From Bifidobacterium criceti (GTDB lineage Bacteria > Actinomycetota > Actinomycetes > Actinomycetales > Bifidobacteriaceae), in contig NZ_MVOH01000007.1 in NCBI RefSeq assembly GCF_002286935.1, positions 62,001 through 126,000 of the forward strand: 64,000 nt of DNA. The letters run 5' to 3'. Under the pieces are notes generated by a model, which was given only the letters and a program-made list of their open reading frames with translations, was not told the origin of the DNA and ran no database searches. Shown one piece after another: positions 698-62,433 of the stretch. Within the stretch, counting starts at the first letter, position 1; each line of letters opens with the position of its first letter. The translations under genes and the position numbers were made by a program.

Positions 698-738
698 CAG
701 GTTGTGCGGCGCGCGCGGTGGGTGCGCTGTTGGCGGCT

Positions 739-900
739 GTGTTGTGCGGCGGTGCCGCAGAACACAGCCGTTTTTCTGTTGTAGGTGGCTGCTGTGTGCG
801 CTGCTGCCGCCGTGTGCGGCCGTTTGTGGACGTTGGGTGGCTGTGTTGCGCGGCATCGCCGCCGCAGACAGCTGCATTCGCACACCGCACCCCCCACTGT
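739..900. repeat. Family A 52-bp tandem repeat, 3 units
   Basis: Units begin at 739, 791 and 843, exactly 52 bases apart; the third is degenerate. The first carries the GCGGC-GGT-GCCGC hairpin core; unit ends match GGTGGCT. A partial unit seems to overlap the dipeptidase stop codon. The same unit recurs at 7741, 31878 and 62122. Confidence 0.8.
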
Positions 901-2591: not shown

Positions 2592-2830
2592 GATGGGAGT
2601 GGGCGGGTTGGTGGTTGGCGTCTGCGTAGTGGGTCGGAAACGGTGGGGTTTGCGGGTGGGTTGGTAGTTGGGAGCTGCGGTGCGGAACGGAGTGGGTGGG
2701 TGTGTAGATGGCATCTGCGGATTGGGGCGGAAAAGGGTTGGTTTGCGGGTGGGCTGGAAGATTGGAGCTGCGGTGTGGGTCGGAACGGGCGCATTGGTGG
2801 GGGCGTCTGCGTGTTGCGGGAGTGGGGAAC
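2592..2830. repeat. Family B repeat, alternating 53/40-bp units
   Basis: The pentamer CTGCG begins units at 2622, 2675, 2715, 2768 and 2807, giving spacings of 53, 40, 53 and 39. The 53-bp units contain a GGAAA block and GTTTGCGGGTGGG; the 40-bp units look like the same unit lacking 13 bp. The array fills most of the gap between fhs and the first surface-protein gene. The open frames across it follow the repeat and are not genes. Confidence 0.75.
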
Positions 2831-7740: not shown

Positions 7741-7925
7741 GTGTGTGGCGGCACTGCCGTGTACGGTGTCCATCTGTGAGCTGTAGATGGCTGTTGTTGG
7801 CGGCACTGCCGACGGTGACGTCTACTTATCGTCCGTAGGCGGCTGTTGTTGGCGGCACTGCCGCGTACAACGTCTACCTATCGTCCGTATACGGCTGTAC
7901 GTTGCGGCACTGCCACCGCACGCAG
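7741..7925. repeat. Family A 52-bp tandem repeat, ~3.5 units
   Basis: Units start at 7741, 7793, 7845 and 7897 (partial), each 52 apart. The core is GGCACTGCC instead of GGCGGTGCC, but the flanking GTTGTTGGCGGC is shared with the arrays at 31878 and 62122. The last partial unit runs into the gtrA stop codon at 7926-7928. Confidence 0.8.
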
Positions 7926-8483
7926 CTACTTCCAACCCTTCGGCGTGTGCTCGATCGACCACATGCCCAGACGGTGCGAGAAACTCTGCTCCCATTTCGC
8001 CTCAAGCTCTTCCTCGGACAGGATGTGGTCGCCGCGGCGCAGGCGGTTCATCGCGTTCGTATGCGTATCGTCGAGGAGCCATTTGCGGATGATGAAGTTC
8101 CAGATTGCGACGACGACGGTCGAAATGAGTTTGCCGATGTTCGTGCGCAGCAGATACATCGCGTGTTGGCTGATGTAGGCGTCTTTGTTCATGCCGTACG
8201 TCGACAGCCAAATGATGAACATGTTGATGAACAGACCGACGACCGCCGAGAACAGGAAGATCGCCATCTCCATCCACCGCGCCATGTCGGGGCGGTGTTT
8301 GAAGACGTATTTCATGCTCGCGAGATAGTTGAACACGAGCGCGATGAGGAACGAGATCGTGCCCGCGATGACGTTGTGCATATGGAACACGCCGACGAGG
8401 AGGTTGAGGATGCCCCAGTCGATGAGGAACGCGATGATGCCGACAACGCCGAATTTGAGGATTTGTTCGATGAGTTTTCGCAC
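7926..8483 (-). CDS. GtrA-family membrane protein
   Basis: A 185-residue protein with four hydrophobic segments: FGVVGIIAFLIDWGILNLLV, TISFLIALVFNYLASMKYVF, FLFSAVVGLFINMFIIWL and LISTVVVAIWNFIIRKWLL. This is the GtrA/DPMS pattern (PF04138) seen in proteins that flip or present lipid-linked sugars for cell-envelope glycosylation. GTG 8483 is preferred. No Shine-Dalgarno sequence precedes it, but TACACT lies exactly 6 bases upstream, so the mRNA is probably leaderless. A soluble C-terminal tail of about 45 residues follows the last segment. No glycosyltransferase is adjacent, so the substrate is not predictable. Confidence 0.8.
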   Translation of the reverse strand: MRKLIEQILKFGVVGIIAFLIDWGILNLLVGVFHMHNVIAGTISFLIALVFNYLASMKYVFKHRPDMARWMEMAIFLFSAVVGLFINMFIIWLSTYGMNKDAYISQHAMYLLRTNIGKLISTVVVAIWNFIIRKWLLDDTHTNAMNRLRRGDHILSEEELEAKWEQSFSHRLGMWSIEHTPKGWK

Positions 8484-19088: not shown

Positions 19089-19161
19089 GCCCCCATCGTC
19101 TAGCGGTCTAGGACTACGCCCTCTCACGGCGCCAACACCGGTTCAAATCCGGTTGGGGGTA
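19089..19161 (+). tRNA. tRNA-Glu (anticodon CTC)
   Basis: A 73-base cloverleaf. Acceptor GCCCCCA pairs with TGGGGGT, with discriminator A at 19161. The anticodon loop CTCTCAC gives CTC. T arm is ACCGG-TTCAAAT-CCGGT. The 3' CCA is not encoded. The top pair of the anticodon stem is an A-C mismatch. It is followed 34 bases later by tRNA-Gln. Confidence 0.93.
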
Positions 19162-19195
19162 CGAAGTTCACCACCACGGTGATGAACATGCCAAT

Positions 19196-19270
19196 TGGGA
19201 TGTGGTGTAATTGGCAACACAGCTGATTCTGGTTCAGCCATTCTTGGTTCGAGTCCAGGCATCCCAGCCA
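19196..19270 (+). tRNA. tRNA-Gln (anticodon CTG)
   Basis: Acceptor TGGGATG pairs with CATCCCA, discriminator G, and the 3' CCA is encoded (19268-19270). The anticodon stem GCTGA/TCAGC encloses TTCTGGT, giving anticodon CTG. It is probably co-transcribed with tRNA-Glu and ends at the hairpin just downstream. Confidence 0.94.
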
Positions 19271-20929: not shown

Positions 20930-21130
20930 GCGTCGTGGGCGCAGGTGCAGGTCGGAGCTGCGAAGCGGGACGGAAATCGGCTGGTTTGCGTCCCGTGTGG
21001 TCGGAGGGAACTGCGGATTGGGCCGCTGCGGGTGGATGTGCGGGTGGTGTCTGCGTAGTGGGACGGAAACTGGCTGGTTTGCGGGTGGGCCGGTTGGTGG
21101 CGTCTGCGGGGTGGGACGCTGCTGACGGCC
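20930..21130. repeat. Family B repeat, alternating 53/40/53-bp units
   Basis: CTGCG begins units at 20958, 21011, 21051 and 21104, giving spacings 53, 40 and 53, the same alternation as at 2592-2830. Shared blocks are GGGACGGAAA and CTGGTTTGCG. It fills the gap between two convergent genes. Confidence 0.78.
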
Positions 21131-30598: not shown

Positions 30599-31804
30599 CT
30601 ACTCGCTGAGCGCGCCTTCGATGAGCAACGTCACCATGTCCGGGAACGGGATACCGGTCGCCTCCCACGCTTTCGGGAACAGCGAAATCGATGTGCAGCC
30701 CGGCAGCGTATTGATTTCGTTGACGAGGACGTCGCCATCCGCGGTCACGAACGTGTCGACGCGGCTCAACCCCATACCATCGACCGCATGGAACGCGTGC
30801 ACCGCCGTGTCGCGCACACGTTCGATGAGGTCGTCGGACAGCTTCGGTGGAATCTCGGTGTGGCTCGCCTGGGCGTCCATGTATTTGCTGTCGAAATCGT
30901 AGAACTGGTCGTCGCCGCTTTCGCGTTTGTCGAGGACGACTTCACCGGGAAGGCTCGCTCGTGGCGAATCGGTCGGCTTGGGGCGAATGACACCGCATTC
31001 GATTTCGCGCGCGTCGATGCCTTGTTCGATGAGCACGCGCCAATCGTGCAGGCTCGCTTCGTAGACGGCGGCCGCGAGCGCTTCCGGATCGTTGATCCGT
31101 TCGACTTTCGTGACGCCGAAGCTCGACCCTGCACGCGACGGCTTGACGAAGAGCGGATAGGCGAGTCCGGCTTCGTCGACGAGTGCGAGGAAGCGTTCGC
31201 CGTCGGCCGCGAAATGGTCGGCCGCGTCGAAACGGCGGGTGTCGATCGTGATACCGGGGGAGACGGGGATTCCGGCGGCCGCGAGCAGCACTTTCGTGTA
31301 ATGCTTGTCCATGCATGCGGCGGAAGCGAGCACGCCGCAGCCGACGTACGGGACGCCCATCATCTCGAAGAGTCCTTGGATCGTGCCGTCCTCACCGTAT
31401 GGGCCGTGCAACGCCGGCAGCACGATGTCGATATGGCCGAGCGACGTGAGCGAACCGTCCGCGTTGCGCGCGAGGAAACCGTCCGCGCCTGCACCGATGT
31501 TGAGGACGACGTCGCGCGCGTCGGCGGTGCGTTCGACGTGCGGCAGACCGTGTGCGAGGTCCCACATGAGCGGATCGTCACCGTCGGTGATCCATGCGCC
31601 GTCCTTCGTGATGCCGATGAGGACGGGTTCGAATTTCGATGCGTCCATCGCGCGCAGGAACGTCGCCGCGGTGATGCACGAAATCGAATGTTCATCCGCT
31701 TTGCCGCCGTAGATGACGGCGACGCGCGTGCGCGGCGTCGCGTCTGCGGTGGTTTCGGTGGTTTCAGGGGTTTCGGTGGTGGAGGTCGTGGTGGGTGTGG
31801 ACAT
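30599..31804 (-). CDS. ddl: D-alanine--D-alanine ligase
   Basis: Joins two D-Ala for the peptidoglycan pentapeptide using ATP. Signatures: VIYGGKADEHSIS near the N-terminus, GPYGEDGTIQG, CMDKHYTKVLL, and the metal-binding NEINTLPGCTSISLFPK near the C-terminus. ATG 31804 follows AGAGG by 5 bases; an upstream in-frame GTG at 31810 is an alternative. The first ~27 residues are Thr/Glu/Pro low complexity, not usual for Ddl, and are probably a disordered tail. It lies on the opposite strand to murA-plsC-gpsA but is functionally linked to murA. Confidence 0.95.
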   Translation of the reverse strand: MSTPTTTSTTETPETTETTADATPRTRVAVIYGGKADEHSISCITAATFLRAMDASKFEPVLIGITKDGAWITDGDDPLMWDLAHGLPHVERTADARDVVLNIGAGADGFLARNADGSLTSLGHIDIVLPALHGPYGEDGTIQGLFEMMGVPYVGCGVLASAACMDKHYTKVLLAAAGIPVSPGITIDTRRFDAADHFAADGERFLALVDEAGLAYPLFVKPSRAGSSFGVTKVERINDPEALAAAVYEASLHDWRVLIEQGIDAREIECGVIRPKPTDSPRASLPGEVVLDKRESGDDQFYDFDSKYMDAQASHTEIPPKLSDDLIERVRDTAVHAFHAVDGMGLSRVDTFVTADGDVLVNEINTLPGCTSISLFPKAWEATGIPFPDMVTLLIEGALSE

Positions 31805-31877
31805 GGTCACCTCTGTGTGGGAGAAGTCAACGGCTACAACGATTCACAGCGTACTCGTACGCCGGTAACTGACAGAC

Positions 31878-32033
31878 GTCGCCGGCGGCGGTGCCGCAGT
31901 GTACAGCCGTGTGCAGCGTGCGGATGGACGTTGTTGGCGGCGGTGCCGCAATGTGCAGCCGTGTGCAGCGTGCGGATGGACGTTGTTGGCGGCGGTGCCG
32001 CAGTGTGCAGCCGTGTGCGGCGTACGGTTCGAC
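31878..32033. repeat. Family A 52-bp tandem repeat, 3 units
   Basis: Units start at 31878, 31930 and 31982 with exact 52-base spacing. The first two differ at only about five positions. This array lies between the divergent starts of ddl and the gene at 32268, unlike the other arrays, which lie at gene 3' ends. Confidence 0.85.
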
Positions 32034-32267
32034 GATTGTCGATTGTCTGGCTGATATCTCACGAGTCAGACCTGAGAACGATCGCAGAAGGGTGTTCGAT
32101 ACACTGTTGCTATTCGTGTGCGTTACGGGAACGTGCATGGTGCGGCCATCGCCGACGCCCACGACGTCGCGGAGCGGACGGTGCATGGCGCATCGTCGTC
32201 CGATGATGTCCGAGCGAACACGCGGGCGAAGTTCGTCCGAACCAATGATGAAAGAGAAGACAGCAAC

Positions 32268-33575
32268 ATGAGCAATCCGAACTCGCCGTATGGTTCCGCT
32301 GGCGAACCGCAAAGCAATCCGCAGTATCCGAACTATCCGGGATACGAGGACACGCGGTCGACGGAACAAGGGCAGACGCAGGCGTACGGCAATCCCGATT
32401 ACTCCGCCTACGACGAAACGCAGGCGTATCCGGGTACGCCGCAACCGATGAACGAGACGCAGCCGATGCCGACGTACGGTGACGCCTACAACGCGCAACC
32501 GATGCAGCCGTCGCAGCCGATGGGCGAAACGCAGCCGATGCCGCCGACGAACGCAACGCAGCCGATGCCGACGTATGGCGAACCGTATGGTGGTGCACCG
32601 CAGTACAACGCACAGCCGCGCACGACTGAATACGACGGCGCCGCACAGGCGCAGCCGACGCAGGCGTTCGACTTCGGACAGATGCAGGGCAACGCCGCAC
32701 CGCAGGCCGCCCCGGCTCCACAGGGCAACGGCGGCGGTTATGGCTTCGAGCAGAACAACTACGGTGGCAACGGGTACGACCCGAACGCCACGAACGGCAA
32801 CGGGTATGCGCCAGCGAACACCTACGGCGGCAACGGGCAGATGCCCCCGCAGATCCCGCCGGACGGCAACGCGCCGTTCAACGGCCAGCAGCCGCCGAAG
32901 AACAACAAGACGCCGATCATCATCGTGAGCGTCGTCGCCGCGCTGCTGCTCATCGCATGCATCGTGTTCGCGGTCATCGCGCTCAACAAGAACGATGACA
33001 ACAAGGGCGGCAACGAATCGCCGAGCGCGACGCACAGCCAGACGTCGTCGCCGAAGTCGACGGACGATCCGACCGACGACCCCTTCGGTGACCTGGACGA
33101 TCCGGACGACGACCCGACCGATGATCCGACGGACGATCCGTTCGGCACCGGCGGCGGCCTCGACAACGCCGACATCGACCAGGCGCTGCGCGACGGCAAG
33201 ACGCTCGAGCAGGCCTTCAGCAATCCGGAAGTCAAGAAGGCAATCGAACAGGCAATCGAGGGCTCATCGGGCGATACCGAGGGCATGACGATGGACGTGA
33301 GCGCGAAAGGCAACACACTCATCTACAAGGTCCGGTTCACCGATTCCGAATACGACGCCTACGAAAGCCTCTATTCGTCGATGATGGACGGCATCCTGTG
33401 CTCCCCGATGAGCGAATTCGTGAAGCAACTCGAGGACGAATACAGCCTCAAGGACGCGAAAGTCGAGTTCATCCTCGAAACCTCGAAGGGGAAGACGATT
33501 ATGGACAAGACCTACGATTCTCAGTCGCAGTGCGACGTGTCGATGGACGATTACGATTCGCTCCTCAACGACTGA
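32268..33575 (+). CDS. Single-pass membrane protein with Pro/Gln-rich tail and extracellular domain
   Basis: 435 residues. The first ~215 are rich in Pro, Gln, Tyr, Asn and Met, with QPMP and PTYG repeats (for example ETQPMPPTNATQPMPTYGEP), and are probably disordered and cytoplasmic. One transmembrane helix follows (IIIVSVVAALLLIACIVFAVIAL). Next comes an acidic stalk with DPTDDP repeats, then a C-terminal domain of ~130 residues with two cysteines (ILCSP, SQCDV). That domain may belong to a small secreted family such as DUF4854; I am not certain. ATG 32268 is preceded by AAAGAGAAG. The layout suggests an envelope sensor or anchored binding protein. Confidence 0.65.
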   Translation: MSNPNSPYGSAGEPQSNPQYPNYPGYEDTRSTEQGQTQAYGNPDYSAYDETQAYPGTPQPMNETQPMPTYGDAYNAQPMQPSQPMGETQPMPPTNATQPMPTYGEPYGGAPQYNAQPRTTEYDGAAQAQPTQAFDFGQMQGNAAPQAAPAPQGNGGGYGFEQNNYGGNGYDPNATNGNGYAPANTYGGNGQMPPQIPPDGNAPFNGQQPPKNNKTPIIIVSVVAALLLIACIVFAVIALNKNDDNKGGNESPSATHSQTSSPKSTDDPTDDPFGDLDDPDDDPTDDPTDDPFGTGGGLDNADIDQALRDGKTLEQAFSNPEVKKAIEQAIEGSSGDTEGMTMDVSAKGNTLIYKVRFTDSEYDAYESLYSSMMDGILCSPMSEFVKQLEDEYSLKDAKVEFILETSKGKTIMDKTYDSQSQCDVSMDDYDSLLND

Positions 33576-46298: not shown

Positions 46299-46314
46299 AC
46301 GACGCCGCTTGTCT

Positions 46315-46410
46315 CGCAGTGCGGTACGCTTGGGCGCCTCCCACCGTACCGTGATGCGGCAAATTCCGCACCACGGTACGGTGGGAGGCGCCCAAGCGTA
46401 CCGCACTGCG
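46315..46410. repeat. Long Family C palindrome, 45-base arms
   Basis: Arms 46315-46359 and 46366-46410 mirror with one mismatch; loop CAAATT. The outer part is CGCAGTGCGGTACGCTT, as in other Family C copies; the inner part GGGCGCCTCCCACCGTACC is particular to this copy. Confidence 0.85.
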
Positions 46411-46437
46411 GAACTTGTGCATATATGCGATAAAGGG

Positions 46438-46463
46438 AGGCCGGGACCGTTAGGTCCCGGCCT
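46438..46463. terminator. Terminator hairpin
   Basis: AGGCCGGGACC / GGTCCCGGCCT stem, loop GTTA, followed by TTCT. It lies between the convergent 43662 and PfkB-like genes. Confidence 0.8.
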
Positions 46464-62085: not shown

Positions 62086-62121
62086 GTCGTCAGCGGTTGT
62101 GGACGGCTGTTGTGGACGGCT

Positions 62122-62433
62122 GTAGTTGGCGGCGGTGCCGCACTGTGCAGCCGTTTGCGACGTACATATGGCTGTAGTTGGCGGCACTGCCGCTTAGTGC
62201 AGCCGTTTGCAACGTACGAATGGACGTAGTTAGCGGCGGTGCCGCAATGTGCAGCCGTCTACAGCGTTCATGTGGCTGTCGTTGGCGGCGGTGCCGCGGT
62301 GCGCGGCCGTGTGTGGCGTGTAGGTAGCTGTAGCCGGCGGCGGTGACGCTTAGTGCAGCCGTCTGCAGCGTACATATGGCTGTAGTTGGCGGCGGTGCCG
62401 CAGAGCGCGGCTGTGTGCAGTGCGCAACCATGG
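62122..62433. repeat. Family A 52-bp tandem repeat, 6 units
   Basis: Units begin at 62122, 62174, 62226, 62278, 62330 and 62382: six in perfect 52-base register. Nearly every unit has the GCGGC-GGT-GCCGC core, and most also have AGCCGT facing ATGGCT, a second potential stem. It lies between the CDF and arsR genes. The open frames over it follow the repeat. Confidence 0.92.

Follow-up and report, generated by a model that had tools for sequence, protein, structure and literature searches.

Bacterial minisatellites serve as typing markers, and the lengths of their units are regarded as arbitrary. In Mycobacterium tuberculosis, MIRUs occupy 41 loci in units of 40–100 bp, with a function that is unresolved (PMC2734929), and the ETR-D/MIRU4 locus is a mixed-period array of 77-bp and 53-bp units (PMC2453075). 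The repeats described here, found in a window of 64,000 nucleotides (the whole stretch of DNA analyzed) and elsewhere in its genome, resemble the MIRU-VNTR loci in being tandem, intergenic units of tens of bp at about 40 loci of a high-GC actinobacterium. Like MIRUs, they comprise tandem 40–100-bp units at dispersed intergenic loci (about 35 arrays of the family that we call family A, and others), and they share with MIRUs a 53-bp unit type and mixed-period arrays. They differ in two ways: unrelated sequences in several species here keep to a period of 51–53 bp, and orientation follows the replichore. Judged by their layout, and not by their sequence, the arrays may work like MIRUs, but we did not class them as MIRUs. 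Among the open-access papers searched, none described such a repeat in Bifidobacterium.

Other described systems share some of these features. The REP/BIME palindromic repeats of enterobacteria are likewise dispersed and intergenic, some of them clustered, whereas here there is no RAYT, the head-to-tail 52-bp register is strict, and sequence varies between species while the period stays. An inner hairpin is kept in the units of family A; most 52-bp arrays are without an unusual palindrome. Minisatellites and VNTRs in general are also tandem and intergenic and change by whole units, as seen here in a difference of about four units between the genomes G058 and G111, but the arrays studied here have one sharp period peak and a 93-bp sister class in place of a broad spread. 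With CRISPR arrays they have in common regular repeat spacing and partial dyad symmetry; unlike in CRISPR, the whole 52 bp repeats without unique spacers, and the arrays are many, small and dispersed.

Register of the family A units

The earlier note had reported a 52-bp repeat at four places in the window, with six units in perfect register at the last of them. Those six units were confirmed as gap-free, with their coordinates corrected to 62118–62429. As for the other sites, the one starting at 31874 is a second good array, while those near 739 and 7741 proved to be real but degenerate, the latter belonging to a distinct sub-family (Table 1). Units at these two sites reached profile scores of 23–31 bits, against 61–75 for good units, and in the 7741 array the top profile matches were on the − strand, opposite to the other sites. 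The six-unit array has the end of a + gene (62085) on one side and the next + gene on the other, and the three-unit array starting at 31874 lies between divergent genes (30599–31804 on the − strand and 32118–33575 on the + strand).

Table 1. Repeat arrays and period signals located in the window.
Feature	Positions	Strand	Remarks
Degenerate family A array, about three units, period 52	718..873	+	63% self-match
Intergenic sister-class array, period 93	2596..2775		secondary lags 53 and 40; unrelated unit sequence
52-bp-period array, family A-like distinct sub-family	7741..7927		unit GTAGACGGCTGTTGTTGGCGGCACTGCCGCGTACAACGTCTACCTATCGTCC; best profile matches on − strand
Intergenic 93-bp-lag repeat, sister class	20958..21129		72% self-match; autocorrelation
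Family A array, three close copies	31874..32029	+	92% by Tandem Repeats Finder (TRF)
Weak intergenic 52-bp-lag signal, probably a decayed array	46312..46442		56% self-match; autocorrelation
Family A array, six gap-free units of exactly 52 bp	62118..62429	+	higher-order 104-bp repeat also present

A sequence-only profile of family A was built from a gap-free alignment of 49 units, taken from about a dozen arrays. Searching the 2.16-Mb genome with this profile returned 139 matches at E ≤ 0.1, so further copies are present and those of the window are a small part of the whole. A weight-matrix scan of the approximately 0.8 Mb of genome read gave about 35 family A arrays, each of 1–10 units and all intergenic, with zero hits in reversed-sequence controls. 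Any two copies differ at a mean of 14.7 of their 52 bases, and the copies are spread over several contigs, so they are not the product of an assembly collapse, the artefact that the earlier note had raised.

The claim that unit length is held exactly was borne out at this larger scale. Between well-scored neighboring units, 68 of 69 spacings were 52 bp and one was 104, and these 69 pairs contained 1000 mismatches and no indel; the lone 51-bp step in family A comes from a pair with a very weak unit. Orthologous intergenic DNA from close relatives of the clade, in three alignments, contained 8 short gaps to 92 substitutions (approximately 9 indels per 100 substitutions). At this rate of ordinary intergenic DNA, tens of indels (roughly 85) would be expected for 1000 mismatches, in agreement with the earlier view that the repeat is not simple slippage of drifting length. 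As 52 is not a multiple of three, coding cannot hold the unit length. Identity was 74% within one array versus 68% between arrays. The longest family A array showed a higher-order 104-bp repeat, and such higher-order repeats point to block duplication. Besides the hairpin core, columns 31–41 of the unit are conserved.

Selection for a structured unit had also been proposed, on the grounds that a GCGGC-NNN-GCCGC hairpin core and an AGCC...GGCT pair were kept. The core was indeed paired in 97.6% of cells across 49 units. The outer stem was paired in just 75.5% of cells, and 28 of the 49 units were unable to pair at columns 3/33, because the units occur as GGCTG and GGACG forms. The covariation score of the proposed stems was 0.086, compared to 0.092 in shuffles, with one pair changed on both sides. 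The stems thus show no covariation, and neither the outer pair nor selection for structure was upheld. The inner GCGGC/GCCGC core is near-invariant and so speaks neither for nor against a hairpin. Over all 52-bp arrays, only about 19% had a palindrome at p ≤ 0.05, which leaves the palindrome unsupported as a common feature of the whole set.

With the family A profile, nothing scored above chance in the 111 further genomes of the genus (at least 112 species in GTDB, with genomes of 1.2–3.3 Mb) or in 38 of the order. A two-core, 52-bp-spaced pattern, searched across GTDB genomes, gave 65 scattered hits, all of them without the flanks of the unit. The genome has a phosphoketolase marker and is probably that of a Bifidobacterium.

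A common period in unrelated sequences

Tandem Repeats Finder gave a peak at 51–53 bp in intergenic DNA, plus multiples at 104–105, and periods of 21, 24, 27 and 33 for coding repeats. By sequence-blind autocorrelation, the top lag was 51–53 in 42 of the 58 periodic intergenic regions of the genome and 93 in 11, whilst shuffled sequence gave none. The same lag was found, with other unit sequences, in close relatives (18/22 in G027, 6/7 in G058 and 1/1 in G116). It was found in 0 of 8 for five genomes taken together, sampled over 100–400 kb: G099, which belongs to the genus but is more distant, G010, G003 and G042 (three others), and G095, from another family.

The units of 49 arrays with a period of 51–53 fell into at least 14 sequence clusters by single-linkage, with a cutoff that exceeded 99.9% of the scores from shuffled sequence and with distant relatives possibly counted as unrelated. 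The largest cluster had 29 members and united family A with the RCGTCGTGCG-type arrays of the same genome, so that some groups in this genome are related to family A. At this threshold, G027 units, G058 units and family A were mutually unrelated. These analyses showed that it is the period (51–53 bp, mostly 52) and not the sequence that defines this class of array, next to the 93-bp sister class. The period itself, common to unrelated sequences, is the key feature, and the earlier note had missed it.

The 93-bp class is marked by secondary lags of 53 and 40 (53 + 40 = 93). Elsewhere it was seen in G000:C3, C31 and C32 (L152, L163 and L172–L174) and in G027, and there was a 94-bp array in G116.

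Orientation and turnover of the arrays

To order the contigs, three complete relatives were searched with 42 protein probes, which gave an approximate placement. This assigned C1, C33, C32, C3 (reversed) and C31 (reversed) to replichore one, and C9 and C12 to replichore two. Of 23 strong family A arrays, 22 were on the leading strand (p = 6e-6); the count was 29 of 35 for all family A arrays and 7 of 12 for degenerate arrays, which have little preference. Between divergent or convergent genes, 13 of 14 family A arrays were on the leading strand, ruling out gene direction as the cause of unit orientation. Good family A arrays were thus shown to follow the leading strand, independently of how the neighboring genes are oriented. 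The sole strong exception was the array at C33:58581. Near this array, in L187 (G000:C33:58581–66518), the strand of a transporter-like gene is the reverse of that in three relatives. The exception may therefore stem from a recent local inversion.

Across arrays of all families, the leading strand was G-rich in 42 of 44 and T-rich in 43 of 44, and the mean skew was 0.23 in arrays versus 0.06 in array-free gaps. Leading-strand mutation bias on unconstrained DNA may contribute partly to this skew; alone, strand mutation bias is insufficient to orient a conserved asymmetric unit. On the G099 map, family A was located at 11–362, 551–667, 1285–1364 and 1671–1691 kb and nowhere else in the mapped parts. 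This is an uneven spread, with none in approximately 670–1280 kb and no clear symmetry about the origin. Two stretches, L170 (C12:150000–169900) and L154 (C18), have about 52% GC in a genome of 63% GC and fewer predicted genes, and are likely acquired islands.

Orthologous gaps were compared between species. The site orthologous to the C3:62115 array holds, in G027, an array of different sequence with a 53-bp period; in G058, G111 and G007 there is hardly any intergenic DNA at this site. The ortholog of C32:138945 has a period of 51 in G027 and 52 in G116, and these two arrays are visibly related. Arrays of sister species were therefore shown to agree in period while being unrelated or diverged in sequence, in some cases where the gaps themselves are orthologous. 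For the window array at 62118, the orthologous gaps of G058 and G111 differ in length by 209–211 bp (approximately 4 × 53), showing, between species, units gained or lost in multiples of the period. Taken with the likeness of units within arrays and the 104-bp repeats, this length step points to amplification and loss of arrays in whole units. The ortholog of the 62118 gap in G058 and G111 (L193 2541–2660; reverse complement of L195) contains decayed 53-bp units, and inverted copies of GCTACGGGTAGTGC ahead of an ArsR-like gene.

Explanations for the held length and orientation

We give about an even chance to the reading that the arrays are clade-specific intergenic minisatellites, MIRU-like, which act or evolve as DNA and have a replication-linked turnover in steps of about 52 bp. 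Replication would, through strand slippage or unequal exchange, give rise to arrays and enlarge them; the slippage or exchange would favor one orientation to the fork and duplicate approximately 52 bp, near five helical turns. Units with a changed length would be purged or not propagated, either because an out-of-register unit could not recombine or because a bound protein would lose the same helix face, which are two alternative rulers. If this reading is true, the held 52-bp unit, the turnover of sequence and the replication strand would together signify a fixed molecular scale in the birth or upkeep of arrays, and the likeness to 53-bp MIRU units would widen the question. Some points weigh against it: the 93-bp class misfits a simple five-turn helical rule, the skew may in part be ordinary leading-strand mutation bias, degenerate arrays have little strand preference, and single-linkage may call distant relatives unrelated. 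One 52-bp ancestor of family A could also give a common length without a ruler, but it would not explain the missing indels or the other families. A less probable reading is a replication-coupled ruler, independent of sequence and about 52 bp long, that would make and maintain intergenic tandem duplications in this one clade. Such a ruler might be, for example, a protein that spans five helical turns, or the stretch of single-stranded DNA that is wrapped or looped on the lagging strand. Through it, unrelated sequences would repeatedly become arrays alike in period and in orientation to the fork.

The main functional rival to replication-linked turnover is a phased protein-binding array selected on the chromosome. 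Each unit would be the site of a putative nucleoid or segregation protein, the 52-bp spacing would keep the sites on one helix face, and orientation would provide polarity. The exact spacing near 5 × 10.4 bp would suit such an array, as would its leading-strand polarity, the conservation of columns 31–41 besides the hairpin core, the lack of preference for a transcription context and the uneven chromosomal spread. We nevertheless consider it fairly unlikely, as no motif is common to units of different loci and species (at least 14 clusters), so that one sequence-specific protein cannot read all units; in addition, the 93-bp class breaks phase, and density is uneven yet not symmetric about the origin. 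Common descent only, in which all arrays would go back to a single old 52-bp satellite by dispersal and divergence of its copies, the length being inherited with neither ruler nor function, appears distinctly unlikely. It agrees with the single cluster of 29 that holds family A and the RCGTCGTGCG-type arrays, and with the related arrays of G116 and G027 at the C32:138945 ortholog, but neutral drift to 68–74% identity without indels is unexpected, and the lack of detectable relation at the tested threshold among G027 units, G058 units and family A also counts against it.

Both readings that start from the hairpin fared worse. A structured RNA element (3′-end stabilizer, terminator or riboregulator) selected for its hairpin would fit with an inner stem that is stable in nearly all units and with the many arrays whose start is no more than tens of bases away from a stop codon. 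It is very unlikely, given the absence of covariation, the occurrence of arrays between divergent genes too, and the lack of T-tract terminators in scans of two arrays of the window. Array position showed no preference for transcribed 3′ ends or gene-orientation class (chi-square p = 0.56), and some arrays, judged by eye, sit past a terminator (L019 and L008); together with an array strand that tracks replication, these observations make an RNA role unlikely. Rfam matched nothing in the window except two tRNAs; a tandem pair of tRNA genes is located at 19089–19267 on the + strand. Least credible to us are mobile palindromes of the REP/BIME kind, which a RAYT/IS200-type transposase would spread in the form of single-stranded hairpins; this would also explain the replication orientation. 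The conserved GCGGC-NNN-GCCGC hairpin, the dispersed intergenic location and the leading-strand orientation are consistent with them, but the copies form exact head-to-tail arrays and palindromes are not general in other 52-bp families. RAYT-driven REP elements were rejected, as the Y1 transposase (PF01797) is absent from the genome while control genomes were positive.

A conserved sequence, CTGTCCGAAAAAACGGAACGGCACCGATWTTTCAGACAG, is present as two copies 52 bp apart at L276 9887–9991 (G058) and at L236 12098–12197 (G027). This pair is better conserved than the other arrays and is perhaps functional.
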